64,000 nucleotides of DNA from an uncultured Nitrosospira sp. (GCA_900696515.1 CAADGK010000039.1:124001-188000); one strand, 5' to 3'; shown: positions 44,647-59,290, numbered from the stretch's first letter. Notes: a model not told the origin generated them from the letters alone. Numbers and translations: made by a program.

Positions 44647-46407
44647 ATGAAATATGCTAAAAGAGCGAGAGTCTTATCGAGTCTGTTGCTGTTTGGGACC
44701 CTGGGTGCCCTGACGGTTCCGCTTCCGTCGCACGCGCTGACCGTGACGATCGATGGGGCGACTGTTCAAATTACGACCACCGCCGCCGCCTGCACCTCGG
44801 GCTACAACCTCTGTTCGTTTATCCCTCCCGGACGATACGGTAACTGGACCGTGGGAGACGTTTCTTCGACGAACCGAGCCAGAATCATGATCGGCGACAA
44901 CAGTACCGCAAACAGTCTCGATCTCCTGAAGCTGACCGGCATCACCTTCACGCCGGTCCTGACGACAGGCACGAAGACTACCACGGTCATTGTCACACAT
45001 GCCTACAATGCCGGTGGCGGGAATCCACAGGGCAACTACTCATGGGGCTATGGCATGTCTGGGTACTTCGATCCCCCTGGTCCCACCGGTCTCGACGAGA
45101 ACGTTGTCGGAAATAGGTTGAAGCAAATCGGCACTGGAAATTTCGCCGGTGTGAGTGTCACTCTCGGGTCTGGGATTGATACCGGTGCGCTAGCCACCCC
45201 ATCAACAAAAAATCTTAGTGGGAGCATCTCGAGGACTAGTGCGGCAACCGTGGTCCAGCCGAATTGCAATACGGGCAGCGGCAGATGTGCGCCGACGATC
45301 ACGCAGACGTTCACCATCACCGTGGTCGGTGCCGATAAGTTGGTGATGACCGACAGTATGATTGCCGCAGGTGGAACTTGCCGGCAGATTGATCAGGTAA
45401 TACCGATTCCTCCGCACCTGTATGCGCTGATGCTCAAGCTGGACCCCCATGCGCCCAACGATATCAATCAGCTGAGCGAGTGGCTAAAAAAGATGGGCGA
45501 GAAGTACCTCAGAAAACCGACACAAAAAAAGCTGCTGGCGTATCTGATCCATGAACTGGAAAAGTGGCTGGCGAAGACCGTTCCAGGGACCTGTCCTGAG
45601 ATCGAGGAGGAGATTAACGAGGTCTTGCTAGACGACGAGGAGGCGGCTTTGGTGGAGGCTGAAGCGGCCGGGGCCGTGCCCGCCACGTCTGGGAGCACGA
45701 TCACGATCACGAAGAATACGAATCAAGCGACGAACGAGACCTTTACCTTCAATATCAGCCGTGAAGGCTCGTCATCGACCGAGACAATCTCAATGGACAA
45801 TCAAACTTCCCAGTCATTCGCCGTCGCGGTGGAGCCAGGAATGACTTACACCATCACCGAACACGCGCTTGCCGGATGGTTGTTGACCAACTCGTCTTGC
45901 GACGACGAGAGCCCCACAACGGCTGTCGTGGTCGAGGTAGGAGGCAATGTCAATTGCACCTTCAGTAACAAGAAGTTCAGCAGCGATGATTATCGTGTGA
46001 TCAGCAGCCCCGGATTGACTTGGGATCAAGCCAGAGTTGCGGCCCAAGCTCTAGGGCTCGGCTGGGACTTGGCCACAATCACGTCGGCTGAGGAACAACA
46101 GTTCATCAATGGGCTGTTACCAGACCCCGCTACAGGTTTGTACCGTTACTGGTTAGGAGGGAGACAAGTCGGTCTGTTTGCTGAGCCCGCCGGTAATTGG
46201 GAGTGGATCAACGGCGAAGGCATCTTTTGGAACAACGGAACAACAGGTCTGTTTGCGAACTGGGCGGCGGGGGAGCCGAACAACTGCGGTGGTGGAGAGC
46301 ACCACTTGATCGTGTGGAGTCTAGGTCTGTCGTCGTGGACCTGGAATGACGAAGCATGCACATCGGTCGGAGGCTATATCGCGGAAAGACATTCTCCGCT
46401 GCCCTAA
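44647..46407 (+). CDS. Secreted protein: novel N-terminal region, SpaA/prealbumin-like domain, C-terminal C-type lectin domain
   Basis: 586 residues, preceded by GAGGAGG. Signal peptide (VLSSLLLFGTLGALTVPLPS, cut near SHA). Residues about 30-340 form a region I do not recognise (LTVTIDGATVQITTTAAACT, ARIMIGDNSTANSLDLLKLT), shared with the next gene, including a helical stretch KKLLAYLIHELEKWLAKT. Residues about 350-445 look like a SpaA/prealbumin-like beta domain (YTITEHALAGWLL, VNCTFSN). Residues about 450-586 are a C-type lectin domain: WINGEGIFWNNG, NWAAGEPNNCGG with the EPN motif, and SWTWNDEACTS with WND. EPN/WND is the Ca2+-dependent mannose-type signature. Likely a surface or extracellular adhesin. 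Confidence 0.8.
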   Translation: MKYAKRARVLSSLLLFGTLGALTVPLPSHALTVTIDGATVQITTTAAACTSGYNLCSFIPPGRYGNWTVGDVSSTNRARIMIGDNSTANSLDLLKLTGITFTPVLTTGTKTTTVIVTHAYNAGGGNPQGNYSWGYGMSGYFDPPGPTGLDENVVGNRLKQIGTGNFAGVSVTLGSGIDTGALATPSTKNLSGSISRTSAATVVQPNCNTGSGRCAPTITQTFTITVVGADKLVMTDSMIAAGGTCRQIDQVIPIPPHLYALMLKLDPHAPNDINQLSEWLKKMGEKYLRKPTQKKLLAYLIHELEKWLAKTVPGTCPEIEEEINEVLLDDEEAALVEAEAAGAVPATSGSTITITKNTNQATNETFTFNISREGSSSTETISMDNQTSQSFAVAVEPGMTYTITEHALAGWLLTNSSCDDESPTTAVVVEVGGNVNCTFSNKKFSSDDYRVISSPGLTWDQARVAAQALGLGWDLATITSAEEQQFINGLLPDPATGLYRYWLGGRQVGLFAEPAGNWEWINGEGIFWNNGTTGLFANWAAGEPNNCGGGEHHLIVWSLGLSSWTWNDEACTSVGGYIAERHSPLP

Positions 46408-47008
46408 TGCTTGAGTAGCGGTCTCTGTCAGGCATCAACAGGAATTGGTTTCTCTCAGTCATGGGGGAGCGGCGAACGCGGCTCCCCCTCATGTCCCAAC
46501 CAGATATCGACAGAGGAAAGGGCACGTCGGTTCCCGTACACCGCCCCACATTCATGCGTTAGCGACGGAGCGCTCGTGCTTTCCCTGTTGAACCTCCCTC
46601 TGTCATGGTCCAATGTCTTGATGGAAACAACACAAGAAGTGGCCTGAGAACCTATCGAAAAGCCCCGCGAGATACCAGGCCTCCACACACATCCATTCGT
46701 CACATCAGCAAATCATTCGGTATCAGAACTTATACAGGTATTACCACGCCTCCGTTGTGGATGTATCCAAAAGGATTCTGAATCGATTTGGATACAGGAT
46801 CCGATATACCCGTAGAGCATGACCGTCATAACGTTCATCGGTCCCTGATCTTCACCATTTATGAAGGAGTTACGGAACCGGGTCACGCCGTTCACTCCTA
46901 GCTCGCTTCTTGCTTGAACACACACATTTCCACAACGAAAGCCTGGAGCCCCGTTGTCGGTTCATTCCGGGCGTGTCGCGCACCAAGCAGTCGGCTGAGG
47001 AGGTCGCC
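46408..47008. other. Intergenic between the two paralogues, no supported gene
   Basis: 601 bases. A stem GGGGGAGC/GCTCCCCC at 46463-46488 follows the first paralogue, but has no T run. Nothing else was identified; a second promoter for the downstream gene is likely. Confidence 0.45.
46463..46488 (+). terminator. Possible transcription-ending stem-loop
   Basis: An 8-bp perfect stem with a 10-base loop (GGCGAACGCG), 55 bases after the stop of the lectin gene. No T run follows, so an intrinsic terminator is uncertain. Confidence 0.45.
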
Positions 47009-48688
47009 ATGGACTATTTCCGAAGAATGGGAATGCTGCTGAGTCTGTTGTTGGGTGGAGCCATGGGTCACTTGACCACACCTCTTCTGTCGCACGCGCT
47101 GACCGTGACAATAGATGGACGAGCAGTTCAACTCGCGCCTACAACAGCCTCACCACCTTGTAGTACAGGCTATAACCTCTGTGCGTTTATTCCTGCCGGT
47201 ACCTATGGGAGATTGGCCGTGGCGGATGTCTCGAGTTCGAACCGGGCCCGAATCATGATCGGCGACAACAGCACCGCCGGCAGTCTCGATCTGATGAAGT
47301 TGACCGGCATTAAGCTCACGCCGGTGGGGGTGACGGCAGGTACCACGACCACGACCACCGCCACGATCGTCGTCACGCATACCTACAATGCCGGGGGCGG
47401 AAACCCGGCAGGCGACTATGCCTGGGGCTACGGGATGGCCGGGTACCTTGATCCCCCCACAAACGAGAACATCGTCGGAGATCAGCTGAAACAAACCGGC
47501 CAGGGCAACTTCGCCGGCAAAATTGCCCCGCTTGGGTTGGGCCTGGATACCGGGAAGTTCGCCACCCCTACCACCCTCAATCTAAACGGCAGCGTCACGA
47601 AATCGCGAGCGGCCACGGTGGTCATGCCCGCGTGCAATACCGGCAGCAACCGATGTGCGCCGACGATCACGCAGACCTTCACCCTCACCATGACCGGCGC
47701 CGACACATTGGTGCTGTCCGACAGTGTGATTGCCGCCGGGGGCACCTGTCGGCAGGCTGAGGCGGTGATCCCGATTCCCCCGCTCCTGTATAAGCTGATG
47801 CTGAAGCTGGACCCCCAAGCGCCGAATGATATCAACCAGCTGCCCATGTGGCTGGCGGATATGGGCGAGAAGTATCTCCATAAACCAACACAAAAGAAGC
47901 TGCTGGCGTATCTGATCCGTGAACTGGAAAAGTGGCTGGCGGCGACGGTGCCGGGAACCTGTGCTCAGGTGCAGACGGCGATTGAGGAGATCATCGAAGA
48001 CGATGTAGAGGCGCATGAGGCGTATATCGCGGAACTTGCCGCCTCACTCGGCGAACTCTTCGCACCCGCCCAGCCGGGCGGTAGCACGATCACGATCAGA
48101 AAGGAGACGAGCGAAGCCACGAACACCAGCTTTCAGTTTACGCTCGTCGGCCCCTCGGCCTCGGCCGACGAGACGATCGACATGGGGGGTCAAACTTCTC
48201 AGTTCATCGTCATTCCGGTGGAGCCAGGAAACTACAGCCTCACTGAAATCCCACGGGCAGGATGGGATTTGACCAACGTCACCTGCAGTGGGGGGCAGAT
48301 CAATCTCAGTCTGAATCTGGCGCTGGGTGACAATGTCGACTGCACCTTCACGAACAGCCCTTCGAATGCCAGTAATGCCGTACTCCATATTAGGAAGCAA
48401 CTGAGCATTTTTTGCGATGGGTCCTGCGCCCCCTTAACCTTCGGCTTCCAAATCTTGGGCCCCCCGAATTTGACGGCCTCGGTCACGACTGATGGCTCCG
48501 GGCAGGGGGTAACCTCGGTGCCGGTAACTGCAGGGACCTACAGTGTAGTAGAGGAGAGCCATGGCTCTTTCGGACTACAAAATAGTTTCTGCAGTGTGGA
48601 TGGTGGGGAACCGGTACCCACAACGGATGTCGTGATCCCATCGGGTGCGAGCGTCACATGTATCTTCGTGAATGAGCCACTGCTATGA
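47009..48688 (+). CDS. Secreted paralogue: same novel N-terminal region plus two SpaA/prealbumin-like domains
   Basis: 559 residues from the ATG at 47009 (GAGGAGG 6 bases upstream, the same leader as the first paralogue). Signal peptide MGMLLSLLLGGAMGHLTTPL. The shared region runs to about residue 350 with long near-identical stretches, such as TFTLTMTGADTLVLSDSV and KKLLAYLIRELEKWLA. Two beta domains follow: SFQFTLVGPSASADETID through NYSLTEIPRAGWDLT, and LTFGFQILGPPNLTAS through TYSVVEESHGSFGLQ, both with paired Cys. There is no lectin domain, so the C-terminus was swapped relative to its neighbour. Likely surface-attached or extracellular. Confidence 0.8.
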   Translation: MDYFRRMGMLLSLLLGGAMGHLTTPLLSHALTVTIDGRAVQLAPTTASPPCSTGYNLCAFIPAGTYGRLAVADVSSSNRARIMIGDNSTAGSLDLMKLTGIKLTPVGVTAGTTTTTTATIVVTHTYNAGGGNPAGDYAWGYGMAGYLDPPTNENIVGDQLKQTGQGNFAGKIAPLGLGLDTGKFATPTTLNLNGSVTKSRAATVVMPACNTGSNRCAPTITQTFTLTMTGADTLVLSDSVIAAGGTCRQAEAVIPIPPLLYKLMLKLDPQAPNDINQLPMWLADMGEKYLHKPTQKKLLAYLIRELEKWLAATVPGTCAQVQTAIEEIIEDDVEAHEAYIAELAASLGELFAPAQPGGSTITIRKETSEATNTSFQFTLVGPSASADETIDMGGQTSQFIVIPVEPGNYSLTEIPRAGWDLTNVTCSGGQINLSLNLALGDNVDCTFTNSPSNASNAVLHIRKQLSIFCDGSCAPLTFGFQILGPPNLTASVTTDGSGQGVTSVPVTAGTYSVVEESHGSFGLQNSFCSVDGGEPVPTTDVVIPSGASVTCIFVNEPLL

Positions 48689-48825: not shown

Positions 48826-51800
48826 ATGGATGAACTCAATTCGCCATCGCGCCATCCTCCGTCCATAAACAAACTCTTTCTGTGGTCCTACCTCCTCATC
48901 ATTGCCGTGACTCCGATGTTACCGTCAGTCGGTGACGCGCAGGTCACAACGAACATTACCTCCTCCGGTCTGAATACCCAGATCAATCAAGTCGGTACTG
49001 GCTCCACCATCACGGGAGGCACCAGGCCCGGTGGTGGTCCCAATCTCTTTCACAGTTTTGGAAACTTCACTGTGGGCACAGGGGATCTTGCGAACTTTCT
49101 CAACGACACAGGCCTGCCCACGTCGAACATCCTGGGTCGTGTCACGGGTGGGAACATCTCGACGATTGACGGCACGATTCAAACCACCGGGTTCGGCAAT
49201 GCCAATCTATTCTTGATGAATCCATCCGGTATCGTCCTGGGGCCTGGTGCGTCGCTCAACCTGGGTGGATCAGTCAGCTTCACGACTGCGCAGTACCTCC
49301 GTTTCTTCGACGGTGTCACCAGCGCCAACTTCTATGCGAACTCCGCCAATGATGGATTGGCCAACAGCATCCTCACGATCAATGCGTCCGCCTTTGAATT
49401 TCTCTCCGCCTCCCCGGCGGGCTACGGGTTTCTCACGGCGCCTGATCCGAATGTCGCGATTACCGTGCAGGGCAGCAATCTCACCGTTCCGTCGGGCCAG
49501 TCAATCTCACTGGTCGGTGGAAAAGTCGTGATCGAAAACAGCGCGGAACTTTCCGCACCGGCCGGCAGTATCCTCCTCGGAAGCGCTGTCTCACCAGGTG
49601 AATTTGATGTCACGACGCTCGGTTCTATTCCCAATGGAGACGGGGCCTCGTTTACCTCGGTGGGTTCGGTTGCTCTGGCGTCTGGTTCGAGCATCAATGT
49701 CTCCGGCTCCAACACCGTGTTCATCCAAGGCGGACAGCTCGTGCTCTCCGTGAATGAAGCGACCCTCTCCACATCCGAGGCCCCCACCCCGCCGGATACG
49801 ATCGCGCTCGGTTCGGGCAGCGCCATCCTGACAGCCAATGCGGGAACCGATCCCGGCGCCGATGTGCAACTGACGGGGGGCACGGTCCGGATGGATGGCG
49901 CCAACATCACGACAGTCACGTCCGGATCGGGAGCAGGCGGGGCGGTGCAGCTGCAGGCGGGTACCCTCACGCTGGACAACGGTGCGTCGATCGTGACGGC
50001 GACGGTGGACGGGGATGGCCCCGGAGGGGACGTGACGTTGAATGTCGGATCGGCCACCCTCTCGGGCGGTTCCCAACTCGTAAGCCAAAGTCAGACGTTT
50101 ACCCCGGAGGCGTTAGGCCGTGGTGGACAGCTCACCATCCAGGGTGTGCCCGGCGCGGAATCAGGCGCGGCATCGTCGGTTTCCCTCTCCGGTGACAGTT
50201 TCCTGTTGAGTTCCTCCTTCGGCACCGGCGAGGGAGGACGTGTAACCATCCTGTCTCAATCGTTGACCATGGATGGGGCGGCCACCACCGTCAAGGCGGA
50301 ATCGGCGGATGTGGGCCGTGGAGGAGATATCGTCGTCGGTGTCCAAGAAGCTGCACTATCAGGTGGAGCGACCATCATCACCGTCACCGGCAGCGCCGAT
50401 CCGAATGCCCCGGCGGCCGCCACCGTCACCCTGCAAGGGTTGTCGGGAGTGGGCAGCCGGGCAGAGGCCATCGACCTGTCGGGATCGGCGTCCGGCATCG
50501 TCTCCGATACCATCGGCGTGGCTCGTTCCGGCGACGTGGCCCTGCATGCTCGGACGATCACGTTGAGAGAAGGGGCCGTCATCCAAACCGGCACGTCGAT
50601 CAATACCGGGGCTGGTGGCAACGTCGCAATCGATGCGGAGACGCTCACCATCTCACGCGAGGCTCGCATCACGAGTTTGTCGGCAGCCGGTAACGCGGGG
50701 CAGGTCACCATCACGGCCGATCAGGTCACCATGAACGATGTCTCGATCGAAAGCAGCACCAGCAGCAGCGGCCGTGGAGGAGACATGGTGCTGGATGTGG
50801 GAACGATGCGCCTGTCGAACGGGGCCGTGATCAACAGCAGTACCTCGTCGGCAGGCCGGGCGGGCGACATTACGATGCACGTCGGCACGCTCAGCCTGGC
50901 CGGCGGCAGCCGCATAAGTAGTGCCAGCACCGGAACGGAGGTCGTCACGAACCTGGATGGCACGACTCAGGCACCGGGCGCTGCGGGAAATGTTTCCATC
51001 ACGGCGACGAGCGGCTTCACCAGCGACGCGAGCACCCTCGCCACCTCGGCGGAAGCGAACCGTGGCGGAGACGTCTCCATCACGGCCCACAGCGTACACC
51101 TGTCCAACGGCACCGTCATCACGGCCAACAGCAACGGACCACTCACGGTCACCCAGCTGGTGTTGGATGCGAACGGCCAGTTGGTCGAACAGGTGGTGGG
51201 CGACGGCAATGCCGGCAATATCCATATCGAAAGCGGCTCAACGGTCCTCATCGAGCAGAGCTCGGTGACCACCGAAGCCAGTCAGGCCAGCGGTGGCCAG
51301 ATTACGATCAATGCCCCGGACATGATCCGGTTCATCGACAGCCCGATCAGCACCTCGGTCGCCGGCGCGGCCGGGGACAGTAACGGCGGCAATATCTCGA
51401 TCGATCCCGATTTCGTGGTGCTGAAAGGCAGCCAGATTTTAGCCCAGGCCTTTGCCGGGTCAGGAGGCGCCATCGACGTGACCGCCGGGCTGTTCCTGGC
51501 TGATCCCGCCAGCGTCGTGGACGCCTCGTCGACGCTCGGCGTCAGCGGCACCGTACAGATCAATGCGCCGATCAATAACCTGTCCAGCGTGGTTGCGCGG
51601 CTCTCGGACTCCTTGCTGGCGGTCCAAGCCTTGCTGCGTGCCTCCTGTGCGGCGAAGCTGGCGCAAGGGTCGGCCAGCAGTTTCGTCGAACGTGGCCGAG
51701 ACGGCATCCCCGCCGGGCCGGACAGCTTGCTCGCGAGCCCCTACGCACCTCCAACCAGCGGCTTTACCGCACAACGACCGGCTTCTCCGGTATTCTCAGG

Positions 51801-51882
51801 AATCCAGTTGCGTCGCCTGTTCCGGCCGGAGATGCCGTCGCCCGTCACCCTCATCTCGGACCAGGGCGGCTGTGTCTCATGA
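48826..51882 (+). CDS. Two-partner-secretion exoprotein (TpsA), filamentous-haemagglutinin-type
   Basis: 1018 residues from the ATG at 48826 (GGGAGAAG upstream). A signal region (LWSYLLIIAVTPMLPSVGDA) leads directly to the TPS domain: LFHSFGNFTVGTGDLANFLN, ILGRVTGGNISTIDGTIQTT, and LFLMNPSGIVLGPGASLNLG, the cyanobacterial-type variant of NPxG. The middle is beta-helix repeat (e.g. GGDVTLNVGSATLSGGSQL, GRGGDMVLDVGTMRLSNGA). The C-terminus has a Cys-containing block (LRASCAAKLAQGSASSFVER) followed by GRDGIPAGPDSL, seen in cyanobacterial homologues. It is exported by the next gene and displayed or released. Confidence 0.92.
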   Translation: MDELNSPSRHPPSINKLFLWSYLLIIAVTPMLPSVGDAQVTTNITSSGLNTQINQVGTGSTITGGTRPGGGPNLFHSFGNFTVGTGDLANFLNDTGLPTSNILGRVTGGNISTIDGTIQTTGFGNANLFLMNPSGIVLGPGASLNLGGSVSFTTAQYLRFFDGVTSANFYANSANDGLANSILTINASAFEFLSASPAGYGFLTAPDPNVAITVQGSNLTVPSGQSISLVGGKVVIENSAELSAPAGSILLGSAVSPGEFDVTTLGSIPNGDGASFTSVGSVALASGSSINVSGSNTVFIQGGQLVLSVNEATLSTSEAPTPPDTIALGSGSAILTANAGTDPGADVQLTGGTVRMDGANITTVTSGSGAGGAVQLQAGTLTLDNGASIVTATVDGDGPGGDVTLNVGSATLSGGSQLVSQSQTFTPEALGRGGQLTIQGVPGAESGAASSVSLSGDSFLLSSSFGTGEGGRVTILSQSLTMDGAATTVKAESADVGRGGDIVVGVQEAALSGGATIITVTGSADPNAPAAATVTLQGLSGVGSRAEAIDLSGSASGIVSDTIGVARSGDVALHARTITLREGAVIQTGTSINTGAGGNVAIDAETLTISREARITSLSAAGNAGQVTITADQVTMNDVSIESSTSSSGRGGDMVLDVGTMRLSNGAVINSSTSSAGRAGDITMHVGTLSLAGGSRISSASTGTEVVTNLDGTTQAPGAAGNVSITATSGFTSDASTLATSAEANRGGDVSITAHSVHLSNGTVITANSNGPLTVTQLVLDANGQLVEQVVGDGNAGNIHIESGSTVLIEQSSVTTEASQASGGQITINAPDMIRFIDSPISTSVAGAAGDSNGGNISIDPDFVVLKGSQILAQAFAGSGGAIDVTAGLFLADPASVVDASSTLGVSGTVQINAPINNLSSVVARLSDSLLAVQALLRASCAAKLAQGSASSFVERGRDGIPAGPDSLLASPYAPPTSGFTAQRPASPVFSGIQLRRLFRPEMPSPVTLISDQGGCVS

Positions 51883-53690
51883 ACAATTGGCTGCATCAGG
51901 CAAGAGGCCACCGCTCCCGACCTGTGATTCACCGCAAAGCGGCATTGGGTGCTGCAATGGTCATCATGACCGGCCTGCTGATCCACAATGCGTCGGCACA
52001 AGTTCCTCCTCCACCGCCCCCACCCATCTTTGATCCGGGTGGGCGATCCGGGGAACTCCCGTCGCTGCGCGAGATGACTCCCGCGCCGACGCCCCTGCCG
52101 TCAGACCAGGCCCCCACGGCGCCGCCCGAGGCCTCGGAGGAACGCCTTCCACCGGTGAAAGTGTTCGTGCGGGAATTTCAATTTGAAGGCCAGACGGTCT
52201 TTCCCGCGCAAGATTTGCAGACCCTCGCGGCCCCCTACACCAACCGCGAGGTCACGACCGAGGACTTGGAACGGTTACGGACGGCGGTCACCCTGCTCTA
52301 TATCCAGCGCGGCTACGTCACGTCCGGCGCCGTCATTCCCGATCAAGCCGTGACGGACGGGCTCATCCGGATGCAGATCATCGAAGGGGCGCTGACCGAC
52401 ATCAACATTGAAGGTGCGCGCTGGATCTGGCCCAGCTACTATCGGCGTCGCATCGCCCTCAGTGCCGGACCGCCGGTCAATGTCTATACGCTCCAGGAAC
52501 GGTTGCAACTGTTGCAGCAAGACCCGCGGGTGGAGCGGCTCAATGCCGAACTTCGCCGGGGCATCTCGCCGGGCCGCAATGAACTGAACGTGCGGGTGGC
52601 GGAAGCCCGGCCGTTCAAAGCCTGGATCGAGTTCAACAACCACCAATCACCGGCCGTCCGGGCGGAACGCTGGATGGCCACCCTCGCGCACGAGAGTCTC
52701 ACGGGTAACGGAGACCGGCTCCAAGTCAGCTACGGTCAATCGATTCCCATGAACAACACCACCGGCGTCCTGCCCTTGATCAACGTTTCCTATGTGCTCC
52801 CGATCACCGCCTACGATACGACCCTGGCGGTCGGCTATCGCCGCTCCGACTTCGAGGTAGTGACTCAACCGTTCCGGACCCTGGGGATCGAAGGCCATAC
52901 GGAAATCTTCAGCGTCACGCTGCAACAGCCGGTCTATCGCAGCCTCACACAGCAAGTGAATGTCGGCGTGCAGGGCGAGTATCTCTACAATAAGAATCTG
53001 CTGCTCGGCCAACCGTTCGACTTCTTCGCCGGCTACCACAACGGGGTCGCCAACATCGCCGCGCTGCGCTTCCTTCAAGATTGGACCTATCGGAACCAGG
53101 ACACGATCGTCGGGGTCCGGTCACGTTTCTCCGTCGGCTTGGACGTGCTGGATGCAACGACTAATTCCGGCCCGGTGGCCGACGGCCGATACTTTTCCTG
53201 GGTCGGACAAGTGCAGGGATTGCGGCGGTTCGAACAATATGCCGGCACGCAGGTGCTGGGCCGGATCGATCTGCAGTTGACCAATGACCGTCTGTTCCCG
53301 CTCGAACAGATTCCCGTCGGCGGACGCCACAGCGTGCGAGGCTATCGTGAGCTCAGCCTGCTGCGGGACAACGCGTTTCTCTTCTCGATCGAGCCGCGCC
53401 TTCCGGTCGCCCGCTGGTTATTCGGAACCAGGGAGGACTTGCTCCAGGTGGCTCCCTTCTTCGATTATGCGAGAGCCTGGTCCGCCAAGGACTCGACGGA
53501 GGCTCCCAAGAGTTTGATGAGCGTGGGCGTGGGGCTCCGAACCGCCTTCCTGCCCAAGAATCAAGGGTACTTTGAACTCTATTGGGGATACCGGTTGCGG
53601 GGAGCGGGAACGAACGATCCCCCCTATAGCACCACCGGCAACATGCAAGATCACGGAATCCACTTGCAAGTGGTCCTACAACCTTTCTAA
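51879..53690 (+). CDS. TpsB outer-membrane transporter, ShlB/FhaC/HecB family
   Basis: 603 residues; its ATG overlaps the tpsA stop by 4 bases. Signal peptide (AALGAAMVIMTGLLIHNASA), a Pro-rich stretch, then POTRA domains (VFVREFQFEGQTVFPAQDLQ, YIQRGYVTSGAVIPDQAV, GPPVNVYTLQERLQLLQQ). The 16-strand barrel follows with the conserved VGGRHSVRGYRELSLL (VRGY/F motif), and ends in an aromatic residue (LQVVLQPF). It moves the upstream TpsA across the outer membrane. Confidence 0.94.
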   Translation: MNNWLHQARGHRSRPVIHRKAALGAAMVIMTGLLIHNASAQVPPPPPPPIFDPGGRSGELPSLREMTPAPTPLPSDQAPTAPPEASEERLPPVKVFVREFQFEGQTVFPAQDLQTLAAPYTNREVTTEDLERLRTAVTLLYIQRGYVTSGAVIPDQAVTDGLIRMQIIEGALTDINIEGARWIWPSYYRRRIALSAGPPVNVYTLQERLQLLQQDPRVERLNAELRRGISPGRNELNVRVAEARPFKAWIEFNNHQSPAVRAERWMATLAHESLTGNGDRLQVSYGQSIPMNNTTGVLPLINVSYVLPITAYDTTLAVGYRRSDFEVVTQPFRTLGIEGHTEIFSVTLQQPVYRSLTQQVNVGVQGEYLYNKNLLLGQPFDFFAGYHNGVANIAALRFLQDWTYRNQDTIVGVRSRFSVGLDVLDATTNSGPVADGRYFSWVGQVQGLRRFEQYAGTQVLGRIDLQLTNDRLFPLEQIPVGGRHSVRGYRELSLLRDNAFLFSIEPRLPVARWLFGTREDLLQVAPFFDYARAWSAKDSTEAPKSLMSVGVGLRTAFLPKNQGYFELYWGYRLRGAGTNDPPYSTTGNMQDHGIHLQVVLQPF

Positions 53691-53708
53691 CGGGATGGAG
53701 AAACGGCT

Positions 53709-56090
53709 ATGACGCACCACCTTTCGCCTTCTCCTGTCACCTCCGCTGGACCTGTTTGTCATCCCGGAAGGCAAGCCTGGGCTGCCGCCATCGGGATTGC
53801 CATTATTGCCCTCTGTCTCCCGTTGCTGATTTCTCCTTCCGCGCCGGCTCATATGACCGGGGCCGACCCGGCGTTTCCTCACGGCTCCCTCCTGCAAGAA
53901 GGACATGAGGCGTTCACCCGTGGCGCCTTCGAACAGGCGGCCGACGTCTGGCACCGGGCCGTCCGGGCCTCCCAGGAGGCCGGTCATGTGGCGGAAGAAA
54001 TCGACGCCCGTCTGGCACTGGCACAGGCCTATGTCTCGCTCGGATTTCATACCCGTGCCGCACAGACCCTCGATGTGGCCGTCGTGCTCGCCCAGGGAAG
54101 CAAAGACCGGGCACGCCAAGCCGCGGCCATGGAATCACTTGCCCAGGCCTATCTCGCCGGCGGACGTCCTGACGCCGCGTTGGAGACCCTGCACCAGGCC
54201 CAACCGCTCGCGCATGACGCGGGTGACCTGCGCCGCGTCGCCTCGATCGTCCATTCGCTTGCATCCGTCCGGAGCGCGCTGAAACAGGACCAGGAGGCGT
54301 CGGCCTCGTATGCGGAGGCACGGCGCCTTTCGGCCTCCGCACAGGCCGACACTCTGCTCGCCGCGTCGACCATCAACGGCGGCAAAGTCGCCCTGCGGCT
54401 GGGAGCCTGGGGAGAGGCTCGAACGTTATTCGATGAGGGGCTGAAGTTGGTCCATGGCTTTCCTGACTCACACGACAAGGCCTACGACCTGATTTCCATC
54501 GGGTTGGGACTCGAACAGCTTCAAGCCCACCTCCCGGATACGGGACGCCGATTGCATGTGCAGGCGGCCGAGGTGCTCGAAACAGCCGGTCGCGTGGCCA
54601 CCGCGGTCGGCGACGTGCGCGCCGCCTCCTATGCCTTGGGTCATCGCGGCCATTTGTACGAACTGGACCGGCGCTATGATGAAACCCTGTTGCTCACCAG
54701 ACTGGCCATCAACTATGCCCAGCAGGTACATGCCCCGGAATCCTTGTATCAATGGGAGTGGCAACTGGGCCGTGTCCTCAAGGCTCAGGACAAGATCGAT
54801 CAGGCGATCCTGTCCTACCAGCGCGCCGCCGAGCTCGTGCAGACCTTGCGCCCTGAAATGGCCGCGAGCACCGCGCTGGCCGGAGCCTCGTTCAGGGAGG
54901 CGAGCGGTCGTCTCTACTTCGAACTGGCGGACCTGCTGCTCCGGCGATCCGGCGCCACCGCCTCACGGGCGGAAGCTCAGCCGTATCTGATCAATGCGCG
55001 CGAAGCCATCGAGTTGTTCAAGACCGCAGAACTGCGCGATTATTTTGCGGACGAGTGTGTGGATGCGTTTCAAAACCACCAAACGAAGCTGGAAGATGTC
55101 TCGCGTCAGGCAGCCATTCTCTATCCCATCATCCTGCCGGACCGGACGGAACTGTTGGTCAGTCTGCCGGACGGCATGCACCGTGTCACGGTCGCCATCA
55201 AGCAGGAGGACCTCAAGGAAGAAGCCATGGGCTTCCGGCGAGCCCTGCAAAAGGAAACAACCCGTGAATATCTCCGGAAGGGCCAGCGCCTCTACGACCT
55301 CCTGCTGCGTCCGCTCGAAGCGGAATTTTCGAAATTCGACATCAACACGCTGGTGGTCGTGCCGGACGGCCCGCTCCGCACAATCCCTTTCTCCGCCCTG
55401 CACGACGGCAAACAGTTTCTCATCGCCAAATACGCGTTGGCCACGACGCCGGGGTTGAACCTGACCGATCCCAAGCCGCTCGGCCGTGAGCGGATCGAGG
55501 TACTTTCCGCCGGCATCACGGAAGGCGTGCAAGGGTTCTCCCCGCTCCCGAACACGGCGGGCGAACTGGAGGCGATCGGCGGCCTCTACAAGACCCATCG
55601 CCTCTTGAACGAGGAGTTCCGCGTGCCGGCGCTTGAACAGGAAATGAAAACCAAGCCGGCCACGATCATGCATATCGCCTCCCACGGCAAATTCGAGCGG
55701 GATGTCAAGAACAGCTTCCTGTTGGCGTTTGATGAAAAGCTGACGATGGACCGGCTGAGTCAAATCGTGGGACTGTCCCGGTTCAGGGACCAGCCGCTCG
55801 AACTGTTGAGTCTCAGCGCCTGCCAAACCGCCGCGGGCGACGATCGCGCGGCGCTCGGCCTCGCGGGGATCGCGATCAAAGCCGGCGCCCGCAGCGCCCT
55901 CGCGACGCTGTGGTTCGTCAACGACGAAGCCTCCTCGGCGTTGGTCGTCGAGTTTTACCGGCAATTAAAAAACTCCTCGCTCTCCAAGGCGCAGGCCCTC
56001 AGACAAGCGCAGCTGACATTGATGGAGAATCCGGATTTCCAGCACCCCATCTATTGGGCGCCGTTCCTGCTGCTGAACAACTGGCTCTAG
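53709..56090 (+). CDS. Exported TPR-CHAT domain protein (caspase-like protease candidate)
   Basis: 793 residues with GGAG before the ATG. An N-terminal hydrophobic helix (AAIGIAIIALCLPLLISPSA, residues about 28-50) acts as a signal peptide or membrane anchor, so the rest is outside the cytoplasm. TPR repeats run from about residue 65 to 420 (HEAFTRGAFEQAADVWHRAV, ALAQAYVSLGFHTRAAQTLD). The CHAT domain begins near residue 520; the dyad is His659 in IMHIASHGKFE and Cys705 in LLSLSACQTAAGDDRA, with AGARSALATLWFVNDEAS after it. CHAT enzymes are clan-CD cysteine proteases. The stop of tpsB is only 18 bases upstream, so it belongs to the TPS operon and could process the exoprotein. Confidence 0.88.
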   Translation: MTHHLSPSPVTSAGPVCHPGRQAWAAAIGIAIIALCLPLLISPSAPAHMTGADPAFPHGSLLQEGHEAFTRGAFEQAADVWHRAVRASQEAGHVAEEIDARLALAQAYVSLGFHTRAAQTLDVAVVLAQGSKDRARQAAAMESLAQAYLAGGRPDAALETLHQAQPLAHDAGDLRRVASIVHSLASVRSALKQDQEASASYAEARRLSASAQADTLLAASTINGGKVALRLGAWGEARTLFDEGLKLVHGFPDSHDKAYDLISIGLGLEQLQAHLPDTGRRLHVQAAEVLETAGRVATAVGDVRAASYALGHRGHLYELDRRYDETLLLTRLAINYAQQVHAPESLYQWEWQLGRVLKAQDKIDQAILSYQRAAELVQTLRPEMAASTALAGASFREASGRLYFELADLLLRRSGATASRAEAQPYLINAREAIELFKTAELRDYFADECVDAFQNHQTKLEDVSRQAAILYPIILPDRTELLVSLPDGMHRVTVAIKQEDLKEEAMGFRRALQKETTREYLRKGQRLYDLLLRPLEAEFSKFDINTLVVVPDGPLRTIPFSALHDGKQFLIAKYALATTPGLNLTDPKPLGRERIEVLSAGITEGVQGFSPLPNTAGELEAIGGLYKTHRLLNEEFRVPALEQEMKTKPATIMHIASHGKFERDVKNSFLLAFDEKLTMDRLSQIVGLSRFRDQPLELLSLSACQTAAGDDRAALGLAGIAIKAGARSALATLWFVNDEASSALVVEFYRQLKNSSLSKAQALRQAQLTLMENPDFQHPIYWAPFLLLNNWL

Positions 56091-56282
56091 GGCGTGAAGC
56101 GTATCTCGTAAAGCGTGAAGCGTCGTCCGTTTCCCTGATCCTGAGTTTCAGATTTCATGTTTAACCTTTCACGTTAAGCTGAAACTAAAAACCTGAAACA
56201 TGAAACTTGGAACCTGAAACTCTTGTGACATCGTTGGCCTCAACGCTTCACACTTCACGTTTCACGCTTCACGAGATTCGCC
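56090..56282. repeat. Intergenic inverted word repeats (GTGAAGCGT and TTTCAGATTTCATG families)
   Basis: GGGCGTGAAGCGTATCTCGT, AAAGCGTGAAGCGTC and AGTTTCAGATTTCATGTTTA on the left pair with GAAACTAAAAACCTGAAACA, GAAACTTGGAACCTGAAACT and CACTTCACGTTTCACGCTTC on the right. One of the clearest members of the family. It fills most of the 312 bases before the cyclase gene. Confidence 0.7.
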
Positions 56283-56402
56283 GCCTAAGCATTTTTCTGA
56301 CGAATCGTCATGAATAATGTGCGGCATTAAGCTACACTACGGCGCTCCGGCACCCCATGCAATGAGCGGGGGCACCGGGTTTGGACTGATCGCTGTCATC
56401 CC

Positions 56403-58349
56403 ATGCGCGGTATTCTGAACTCCGTCTATGCATCCATTGCGATACGGCTTGTCACCGGCCTGCTGTGCGGGTTGGTCATCATCGGGATCCGCAGCACCGG
56501 CCTGCTCCAACAACTGGAACTCAATACCTACGATTGGCTGCTCCGCTCACGCCCGGCCCAGACGCTCAGTGCGCCGCGCATCGCCTATATCACGATCTCC
56601 GAGGAAGACATTCGCCGACAGGGACGGTGGCCGATTACGGATAAGACCCTCGTGCAAGCTCTCCGTCTCCTGCTCAGCTACCAGCCACGAGCCATCGGAG
56701 TGGACTTCTATCGCGACATCGAAGTGCCTCCCGGGCATAAGGAACTGATCGCACTGCTTCCCAAACATCCCCGAATCATCATGATCTCCCAGCTGGGTGG
56801 CGGAACGGTGGCCCGCATCCCGCCTCCGGCGGTGCTCCAAGGCAGCCAGCAGGTGGGGTTCAACGATATCCTCGTCGATCCCGACGGGCTGATCCGCCGA
56901 GCGCTGCTCTTTCAAGACGACGGTGACGACGTCGCGACCGCCTTTGCACTCAAACTGGCCACACTGTATCTGGCCCAGGACGGTATCGCGCCGGAACAGG
57001 ATCCGGTCATGCCGGAATGGATTCGCCTGGGACGAACAACCCTGCCGCCGTTCGCTTCCTCGGACGGAGGCTATGTGAATGCGGATGATGCCGGCTACCA
57101 GATCCTCCTGGACTTCGGCGCGGCAAGCCAGGCGCTCGAAACATTTTCATTGACGGACCTGCTGGAGGGGCGGATCGACAAACGCGCTCTGGCCGACCGC
57201 ATCGTCATGATCGGTGTGACGGCGGAGAGCGTGCCGGATGTGTTCCAGATCCCGGTCCCCTATGGAACACAGGGCCGTGACCAATTCCCCGGTGTCTTCC
57301 TGCACGGCATCATCACGGAGCAACTGCTTGCCGCCGCCATCGACGACCGGCGCCCCCTCCGTATGATGAGCGAAAGCCAAGAGATTGCCTGGACACTGGT
57401 CTGGGGAATGCTGGGAGGAGTGCTCGGAGGCTGGACACGATCCATCTGGCGTTTTTCTCTCATGACGCTCGCGGGCCTTCTGCTGATCACCCTGTCGGCC
57501 GTGCTGCTCTTCTTCTCGAGCTGGTGGGTGCCGGAAATCCCGCCTGCCTTCACCTGGTTTCTCGCCGTCGCGGTCGGCGTGGCCTCGACATTGGCACGGG
57601 AACAAAAGGACCGGACCGTGCTGATGCAACTCTTTTCCCAACACGTCTCGCGCGAGGTGGCCGACAAGATCTGGCAGGAACGGGACCAAGTACTGGAAGG
57701 CGGACTCCCGCAACCTCTTGAGCTCACGGCCACCGTGTTATTTTCAGACTTCAAAGGGTTTACCAGCGTCTCGGAAACGATGTCCCCCAAGGACTTGATG
57801 AGCTGGCTCAATGCTTACCTGGATGCCATGACGCAGGTCATCATCAACCACGGCGGTGTGATCGACGACTATGCCGGTGACGCCATCAAGGCCGATTTCG
57901 GCGTCCCGCTCAAACGCGAGACGAACGAGGAGGTGGCGAGAGATGCCATCAACGCGGTGACCTGTGCATTGGCGATGGAACAGGCCATGCTCACATTGAA
58001 TGAGGCGCATGTCCGGAAGGGCCTTCCCACGGTGGGCATGCGGATCGGCATCCATACAGGACCGTTGGTCGCCGGATGTTTAGGGAGCGCGCAACGCATG
58101 AAGTACACCACCATCGGTGACACGGTCAACACCGCCGCGCATCTGGAAAATTTCGGGAGAGGAACGATCGCGGAACCGCAGGGCCGTCGCCCCTGCCGGA
58201 TCCTCATCAGCGAGGTCACGGCTCAGCTGCTCGACAACCGCTTTCAATTGGAAGGGATCGGCGAAGTGGCGTTGAAAGGTAAAGCTCAGGCCCTGTCGGC
58301 ATTCCGTGTCGTCCCGCCGGACGTGGAGCGTCGCACCTTGGGGAGTTAG
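56403..58349 (+). CDS. CHASE2-domain membrane protein with class-III nucleotide cyclase domain
   Basis: 648 residues. An N-terminal helix (RLVTGLLCGLVIIGIRSTGL), an extracytoplasmic CHASE2 sensor (residues about 40-320: YDWLLRSRPAQTLSAPRIAY, ADRIVMIGVTAESVPDVFQI), three membrane helices (ETWTLVWGML-type region about 325-395) and a class-III cyclase domain from about residue 440. Metal Asp are D449 (FSDFKGFTS) and D493 (YAGDAIKADFG). The purine-contact Lys of adenylate cyclases is Asp489 here, and the transition-state Arg of NxxxR is His580 (NTAAHLE). Product is therefore uncertain. It senses a periplasmic signal next to the TPS-CHAT genes. Confidence 0.88.
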   Translation: MRGILNSVYASIAIRLVTGLLCGLVIIGIRSTGLLQQLELNTYDWLLRSRPAQTLSAPRIAYITISEEDIRRQGRWPITDKTLVQALRLLLSYQPRAIGVDFYRDIEVPPGHKELIALLPKHPRIIMISQLGGGTVARIPPPAVLQGSQQVGFNDILVDPDGLIRRALLFQDDGDDVATAFALKLATLYLAQDGIAPEQDPVMPEWIRLGRTTLPPFASSDGGYVNADDAGYQILLDFGAASQALETFSLTDLLEGRIDKRALADRIVMIGVTAESVPDVFQIPVPYGTQGRDQFPGVFLHGIITEQLLAAAIDDRRPLRMMSESQEIAWTLVWGMLGGVLGGWTRSIWRFSLMTLAGLLLITLSAVLLFFSSWWVPEIPPAFTWFLAVAVGVASTLAREQKDRTVLMQLFSQHVSREVADKIWQERDQVLEGGLPQPLELTATVLFSDFKGFTSVSETMSPKDLMSWLNAYLDAMTQVIINHGGVIDDYAGDAIKADFGVPLKRETNEEVARDAINAVTCALAMEQAMLTLNEAHVRKGLPTVGMRIGIHTGPLVAGCLGSAQRMKYTTIGDTVNTAAHLENFGRGTIAEPQGRRPCRILISEVTAQLLDNRFQLEGIGEVALKGKAQALSAFRVVPPDVERRTLGS

Positions 58350-58528: not shown

Positions 58529-59290
58529 TCAGTGTTTGCGCATATTCTGGATACTTGACGCGACATCCCCGAGTCCGCCCTGTTCGAGCAAAGCCGTCTG
58601 CAGCTGAGGCAAGTCCGTATCAGCCGGATTGGCCTGCATCAAATCGGAAATGGCCATGAGCGCATCGTACCAGACGCCTGCTTCGGCATAACGCTTGGGA
58701 GCATCCGCTTTAGTCGGCTCACCCGATAAGGGCTGTTCCAGTTTGTCACGAGTGACCCGTTCTATGGCCCCCTTGGCCACAACATTGGCGGACGGCTCGT
58801 CGGGATCCATGACCAGCGACACTGACCAGTGATACCGTTCTCCAGGGACTAATTTCGCCTTGTAGTCGGCAAGCCGGATCTGCTGCACCCCGCCTCTGGC
58901 CGGGCTTGGAAGTTTCGTTTCGATGACCGGGGCATCGGCGTTGTCGGCGATGAGGGTGAATTCATAGACGAGATTGTGGTTGGTCGGGGTGAACCAAAAC
59001 AAAACCGGCTGCTCCTGAAGCGTGAACCCGACATGGTCGGGGGCCAAGAGGCTGATCATAGGAAGACTCTTGTTCGTCCCGCGCGTTCCCCCACCCCTCC
59101 TGAGCCCGGCAGCCGGAGCTCCTTTCCTCGGTGGGACATACATGATAGGTTTCGCCGTGGAATCGGACTTCGCTTGAGATGCTGTTGCTTGAGTGGTTTT
59201 TCCTTGTCCTTCCGCCGCTATGGAACCCCAGGGGAACGGGAACACCAGTCCCATTGCCGCACCGACGATGATCATGAAGCGTTTCATCAT
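58529..59290 (-). CDS. DUF928 family exported protein
   Basis: 253 residues; AAAGGAG lies 5-6 bases before the first ATG. Signal peptide (MIIVGAAMGLVFPFPWGSIA). The family pattern is visible: a basic Pro/Gly segment PPRKGAPAAGLRRGGGTRG, SLPMISLLAPDHVGFTLQEQ with PVLFWFTPTN, a core beta sandwich (YEFTLIADNADAPVIETKLP, ERYHWSVSLVMDPDEPSANV) and a helical end (VWYDALMAISDLMQANPA). DUF928 is mainly known from cyanobacteria, where it is encoded near CHAT, CHASE2 and haemagglutinin-type genes. It is convergent with the cyclase gene. Confidence 0.82.
   Translation of the reverse strand: MMKRFMIIVGAAMGLVFPFPWGSIAAEGQGKTTQATASQAKSDSTAKPIMYVPPRKGAPAAGLRRGGGTRGTNKSLPMISLLAPDHVGFTLQEQPVLFWFTPTNHNLVYEFTLIADNADAPVIETKLPSPARGGVQQIRLADYKAKLVPGERYHWSVSLVMDPDEPSANVVAKGAIERVTRDKLEQPLSGEPTKADAPKRYAEAGVWYDALMAISDLMQANPADTDLPQLQTALLEQGGLGDVASSIQNMRKH

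Follow-up and report, generated by a model that had tools for sequence, protein, structure and literature searches.

A predicted exported CHAT protease is co-inherited with two-partner secretion exoproteins that share a C-terminal motif

To our knowledge, every CHAT protease whose role is established is intracellular and serves CRISPR immunity, cell division, or eukaryotic chromosome separation, and two-partner secretion (TPS) has so far been known to use housekeeping proteases. Separase and Csx29 are known endopeptidases, the dyad of Csx29 having been mutated as H615/C658 (PMC10028731), and HetF of Anabaena, a CHAT-transmembrane (TM)-TPR protein, has a role in the divisome (PMC8406250). The retained C terminus of the TPS exoprotein FhaB is processed in the periplasm by DegP and CtpA (PMC8263021), and HMW1 and HxuA have a periplasmic C-terminal disulfide anchor (PMC5422565). 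Here we describe a locus from a genome labeled uncultured Nitrosospira sp. that carries genes for a TPS exoprotein (tpsA), its transporter (tpsB), a TPR-CHAT protein, a CHASE2 cyclase, and a DUF928 protein (Table 1). Positions refer to the 64,000-nucleotide stretch analyzed, GCA_900696515.1 CAADGK010000039.1:124001-188000, called the window below. The reading that we favor, at a probability of roughly 0.58, is that the TPR-CHAT protein is a periplasmic protease whose dedicated substrate is the retained TpsA tail and that it probably releases or matures the filament.

The window protein is a member of the CHAT family (PF12770), with the domain and its His/Cys dyad, and is predicted to be proteolytic. 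His659 and Cys705, named as the dyad in the original prediction, are intact and were invariant across 19 diverse homologues. The TPRs fell below the Pfam threshold but are clear in the AlphaFold model (mean predicted local distance difference test score, or pLDDT, 83.6), which consists of a TPR superhelix and the CHAT domain. Its best whole-chain matches were the Csx29/Craspase chains (Z 31.3 for 7y84_C; 535 residues; root mean square deviation [rmsd], 5.8), and its catalytic part matched the separase protease domain (Z 24; 307 residues; rmsd, 3.4). As in the type III-E Craspase, a TPR superhelix precedes CHAT, and the dyad corresponds in kind to that of Csx29; unlike Csx29, the window protein is predicted to be exported to the envelope and lies next to TPS genes, and the two are about 11% identical. 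Neither a Cas7-11/CRISPR locus nor a bacterial gasdermin was found among the Pfam-scanned neighbors (44.6 to 62.2 kb, the only part of the genome covered for Cas7-11). The likeness to separase lies in the fold of the protease domain and would extend to dedication to a structural protein, whereas the window CHAT is bacterial, predicted to be periplasmic, and much smaller in its helical part; no securin-like partner was identified for it. HetF also combines CHAT with TPRs and is membrane associated, but its domain order is reversed, with the TM segment between the domains.

The original prediction gave this protein an N-terminal export or anchor helix. Export is strongly supported: there is a single hydrophobic segment (core at about residues 30 to 42) with an AXA site after residue 47 and no other TM segment, and a signal peptide was found in 109/116 complete homologues, several of the exceptions being visibly overextended open reading frame (ORF) calls. 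The anchor is not; the segment looks instead like a signal peptide of the cleavable type. We regard export of the TPR-CHAT protein from the cytoplasm as nearly certain. The other four CHATs of this genome are at neither of its two TPS loci, and those with a readable start (L004 and L006) lack an N-terminal hydrophobic segment.

TpsA has the features of a TPS exoprotein: a match to PF05860, a signal peptide, and a beta-helix in the AlphaFold2 model (mean pLDDT, 79). The TPS domain (residues 46 to 260) is followed by the beta-helix to about residue 913, a helix at 930 to 945, and a disordered tail. TpsB has the POTRA domain and ShlB/FhaC barrel of a transporter, and its Protein Data Bank matches were CdiB and FhaC. 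All the Pfam matches in this locus (TPS, POTRA_2 plus ShlB, CHAT, CHASE2 plus Guanylate_cyc, and DUF928) exceeded the cutoff.

TPS exoproteins are far commoner in genomes with this CHAT than in genomes without it. Among 148 Nitrospirota genomes, a TPS exoprotein was present in all 28 with a full-length CHAT homologue versus 22/120 of the others (Fisher test, P = 7e-17). Among 247 genomes of the Desulfobacterota (the phylum of Desulfobacter), the numbers were 5/5 with full-length CHAT versus 16/242 (P = 3e-6). TpsA and/or TpsB stood beside CHAT in 39/40, 44/50, and 22/29 loci, and several of the misses were on short contigs. In the 40 Nitrospirota loci, TpsA was found in 39, TpsB in 37, DUF928 in 27, and CHASE2 in 5. 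For 29 loci of named non-Nitrospirota genomes, the counts, which are lower bounds because of short contigs, were 22 for TpsA or TpsB, 22 for DUF928 or CHASE2, and 10 for all five genes. These loci came from records of Desulfobacterota, Gamma-, Alpha-, and Betaproteobacteria, Verrucomicrobiota, Planctomycetota, Myxococcota, and Methylomirabilota, some of which are metagenome-assembled genomes (MAGs) whose taxonomic labels may be wrong. The host is a Nitrospira, a nitrite-oxidizing bacterium: the nearest named homologue, 91% identical, was from a Nitrospira MAG. The gene set was also present, at about 33% identity, on cyanobacterial plasmids. The order is TpsB-CHASE2-TpsA-CHAT-DUF928 in Pseudanabaena and TpsA-CHAT-DUF928-CHASE2 kinase-response regulator in Kovacikia; plasmids of Nostoc UHCC 0302 and Anabaena cylindrica carry the set as well. 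The neighborhood count thus places the gene set in many phyla, and the gene order recurs beyond the window genome. A search of viral contigs for CHAT relatives gave no match. The window genome itself has a second locus, TpsA-TpsB-CHAT-DUF928, without CHASE2 (G000:C11, L040). Near an exported CHAT locus of Scalindua, there is a large, cytosolic-looking protein in which a class III cyclase and an ATPase/TPR part are joined to a CHAT-like region (L086, 1266-5810).

What is new here is a common C-terminal motif of the CHAT-associated TpsA proteins, with the consensus C-x(~9)-SSF-xxx-GRD-x-L-P-xx-P, which follows the beta-helix. In 24 aligned TpsA proteins from several phyla, C941, P965, and S971 were present in 24/24, and S951, R958, and P962 were present in at least 22/24; the mean fraction of the top residue was 0.60 inside the motif versus 0.27 in the tail beyond it. 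The TpsA model places the motif where a tail with pLDDT below 50 begins, a position that fits a short linear motif. Within the Nitrospirota, a profile of the motif matched in 27/27 CHAT genomes with a complete TpsA versus 0/11 CHAT-negative TPS genomes (Fisher test, P = 8e-10). An independent regular expression gave 40/61 versus 0/13, with a background of 7/1297 ORFs; in the Desulfobacterota, it matched no examined CHAT-negative TPS protein, although a few of these were truncated at the C terminus by the edge of a contig or stretch. Genes for motif-bearing TpsA also occur at a distance from CHAT in genomes that have CHAT elsewhere (G137, G091:C16, G097:C14, and G099:C10). In CHAT genomes, the TPS proteins without the motif were mostly long, with another C terminus, and not adjacent to CHAT; one was a broken tandem copy. 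A second class of Nitrospira locus (L067-L071 and L074-L078) has the order tpsB-tpsA-CHAT and neither DUF928 nor CHASE2; its TpsA is short, at about 430 residues in most cases, and retains the tail motif.

Motif-bearing TpsA proteins had exactly one Cys within the motif in 100/100 cases and, after it, exactly one in 84 and two in 3; the later Cys was mostly within 3 residues of the C terminus. This pattern suggests, by analogy, that Cys941 and the second Cys form a disulfide anchor like that of HMW1 and HxuA, in which case a periplasmic loop locking TpsA in TpsB would be expected. Here, in addition to the putative disulfide, SSFxxxGRDxLPxxP follows the first Cys and a CHAT protease is present. 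Most CHAT homologues have only one Cys besides Cys705, namely, Cys450; its motif, YFxDxC, was found in 118/124, and several of the 6 exceptions have a variant motif, for example YYxDxC, that retains this residue. This noncatalytic Cys, nearly universal in exported CHATs, could be a redox switch or form a mixed disulfide with the Cys of the TpsA motif.

CHAT is also found fused to TpsA. We found three fusions in single ORFs, none of which has ambiguous residues. On plasmid pREC3 of Acaryochloris marina (L232), one protein of 1756 residues contains TPS domain, beta-helix, motif (DACAVPRSGQSQFIVTGRGGLPLMP), TPR, and CHAT. In Desulfobacterota genome G309 (L239), the order is tpsB-[tpsA::CHAT]-CHASE2-DUF928, and the motif (KPCAERVEEISSFVVSVRDGLPLQP) immediately precedes the TPRs. 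Both have the motif at the TpsA/TPR junction and no internal signal peptide; therefore, the TpsA tail and CHAT are in one compartment. A CHAT domain that follows TpsA and lacks a separate signal should be exported together with TpsA, which places it in the envelope independently of the signal peptide evidence. The third fusion (G367, L241) is weaker evidence because its TpsA part stops in mid-helix and continues into the final portion of the TPRs, without the motif. An apparent TpsB-CHAT fusion (L128) was dropped because an X in its translation marks a gap in the assembly, and tblastn matches in Halotia and Nostoc that resembled fusions were separate neighboring coding sequences. The pREC3 fusion gene is directly followed by two lysine-acyltransferase genes and a gene for a large calcium-binding (RTX-like) protein.

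With co-occurrence in two phyla, the recurring gene set, and the three fusions, the partnership part of the functional link in the original prediction stands: CHAT is very probably a functional partner of TpsA. In the mechanism that we propose, Sec would carry TpsA over the inner membrane, and TpsB would then pass it through the outer membrane, N terminus first. Its C-terminal tail would stay in the periplasm, as HMW1 and HxuA suggest, the loop probably being closed by Cys941-Cys1016. The TPR-CHAT protein, brought there by its own signal peptide, would bind SSFxxxGRDxLPxxP and, on some trigger, cut in or near it, putatively at or near SSFVERGRDGIP; the cut would mature or release the filament. 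The tail is probably what CHAT recognizes, and we put maturation or release by CHAT cleavage at even odds. Proposed in this way, the system resembles FhaB/FHA (DegP, CtpA, and SphB1), in which the retained C terminus of a TPS exoprotein undergoes periplasmic proteolysis, but FhaB is processed by general housekeeping proteases and an autotransporter, whereas CHAT is encoded in the operon.

Several points count against this proposal. The cleavage of TpsA by CHAT, originally predicted as processing of the exoprotein, is still something that we infer. The genome counts treat related genomes as independent and ignore common descent, and the hidden Markov model used as the motif profile was built from the TpsA proteins of CHAT loci. 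Some CHAT genomes (G313 and G367) have a weak motif or none, and some cyanobacterial plasmids (L235 and L237) have a divergent one. Arg958 is conserved yet not universal and so may serve recognition rather than be the P1 residue, or may do neither. Motif-bearing TpsA proteins may form one clade, and a single TpsA subclass may simply travel with CHAT and bear the motif as its TpsB or anchor signature.

A related alternative is that the motif acts solely as an anchor for retention at TpsB, as in HMW1 and HxuA, and that CHAT, a signaling protease of envelope stress, cuts DUF928, the periplasmic domain of CHASE2, or TpsB when export stalls. The two-Cys pattern at the C terminus fits the known anchor (PMC5422565), DUF928 and CHASE2 with various outputs recur beside CHAT across phyla, and in G137, CHAT has CHASE2 and DUF928 beside it while the motif-bearing TpsA genes are elsewhere. 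However, CHAT in the Nitrospirota keeps TPS far more strictly than CHASE2 (39/40 versus 5/40 loci), and the CHAT fusions are to TpsA, with none to CHASE2 or DUF928; we consider this alternative unlikely.

Less probable still is that CHAT is a conditional killing or defense protease of the envelope, kept inactive by the TpsA tail, as separase is by securin, and released on contact or damage. Its relatives include regulated immunity proteases (Csx29; PMC10028731), the TPR-CHAT fold matches, and the two conserved Cys residues of CHAT could permit redox control. Against this, no toxin domain or defense gene was identified among the scanned neighbors, the cassette is kept on the chromosomes of many lineages, and nothing found here indicates toxicity. 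That the N-terminal segment is an uncleaved anchor, with CHAT in the cytoplasm and close to TPS by operon hitchhiking, seems very improbable. The long n-region with few positive charges before the core could belong to a signal anchor, as could a single hydrophobic segment, but an AXA site follows the core, CHAT occurs fused to the C terminus of a Sec/TPS-exported protein with no further signal, and CHAT and motif-bearing TpsA co-occur even when unlinked.

The original prediction also linked CHASE2 to the system. This link is the weaker one, although it recurs across phyla: CHASE2 was near CHAT in 19/29 of the other loci versus 5/40 in the Nitrospirota. Because it is missing at 35/40 Nitrospirota loci and at the second TPS-CHAT locus of its own genome, CHASE2 looks like an optional output, a facultative companion. 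Because its output domain varies (a cyclase in the window, a histidine kinase with a response regulator in Kovacikia), CHASE2 and DUF928 may serve as reporters of the system's state, but both are optional in the Nitrospirota; that CHASE2 has this role is doubtful. As a tentative extension, which we hold to be rather less than an even bet, this would be a widespread envelope signaling-protease system: exported CHAT would read the C-terminal tag of the filament, cut it, and release the filament, and DUF928 and CHASE2, with interchangeable output, would report the state of the tag across the inner membrane. A linker motif of DUF928, considered as a second CHAT substrate, is not claimed; the pattern occurred in just 27/96. 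In the cyclase domain (about 57729-58289), the clade of the window (L041 and L080-L083) has VNTAAHL versus VNxA[AS]RL in the other readable CHASE2 cyclases; with the usual transition-state Arg replaced by His, the window cyclase may be altered or inactive.

The 4-base overlap of tpsA and tpsB (ATGA, 51879-51882) and the 18-base gap from tpsB to the CHAT gene are exactly as originally described and support a single transcript for the three genes. CHASE2 is not tightly linked to CHAT here: the gap between the two genes is 312 bases and is mostly occupied by a dispersed palindromic repeat with ~49 partial matches genome-wide. Since the repeat fills most of the gap and the close relative L041 has just ~75 bases there, the spacing is probably due to a later insertion. 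The DUF928 gene is convergent to the CHASE2-cyclase gene. Promoter and terminator scans gave no matches above the chance level. Just upstream of tpsA are two tandem paralogues (44647-46407 and 46910-48688) that encode exported proteins. The two share 60% identity over 441 residues and have SpaA-like prealbumin folds, and the first also contains a C-type lectin domain.

Table 1. Features of the TPS-CHAT locus, in window coordinates
Feature	Position	Strand	Description
tpsA	48826-51882	+	TPS exoprotein, 1018 aa; Pfam TPS, E 1.8e-33
TpsA C-terminal motif	51646-51741	+	Residues C941-P972, C-AAKLAQGSA-SSF-VER-GRD-G-I-P-AG-P-DSLLA-SP
TpsA Cys1016	51871-51873	+	Two residues from C terminus; candidate disulfide partner of Cys941
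tpsB	51879-53690	+	Outer membrane transporter, POTRA plus ShlB/FhaC-type barrel; Pfam POTRA_2, ShlB
TPR-CHAT gene	53709-56090	+	793 aa, predicted exported protease; Pfam CHAT, E 2.7e-57
CHAT Sec signal peptide	53709-53849	+	Residues 1-47; AXA site, predicted cut between APA and H; 12-residue Kyte-Doolittle mean 3.14
CHAT protein domains			TPR, about residues 60-440; CHAT, residues 523-788
CHAT Cys450	55056-55058	+	YFxDxC, second conserved Cys
Catalytic His659	55683-55685	+	Invariant alignment column
Catalytic Cys705	55821-55823	+	LSAC; invariant alignment column
Palindromic intergenic repeat	56095-56290		Inverted arms of 25-33 bases; dispersed element like a repetitive extragenic palindrome or miniature inverted-repeat transposable element (REP/MITE-like)
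CHASE2 sensor plus class III nucleotide cyclase	56403-58349	+	Pfam CHASE2, E 5e-58; Guanylate_cyc, E 7.6e-23
DUF928 protein	58529-59290	-	Predicted exported, often found with CHAT; Pfam E 7e-37

If the proposal is right, the separase/caspase fold would have a new use in a branch of exported CHAT proteins that accompany TPS filaments in several bacterial phyla, and TPS would have a dedicated release protease with a ready substrate motif. We found nothing relevant in the open-access literature on CHAT with two-partner secretion, hemagglutinin, or CHASE2, although an earlier description elsewhere is possible. Nitrospira and filamentous cyanobacteria, in which the system has multiplied, live in flocs, biofilms, and mats, and it is there that control of filament release could matter.

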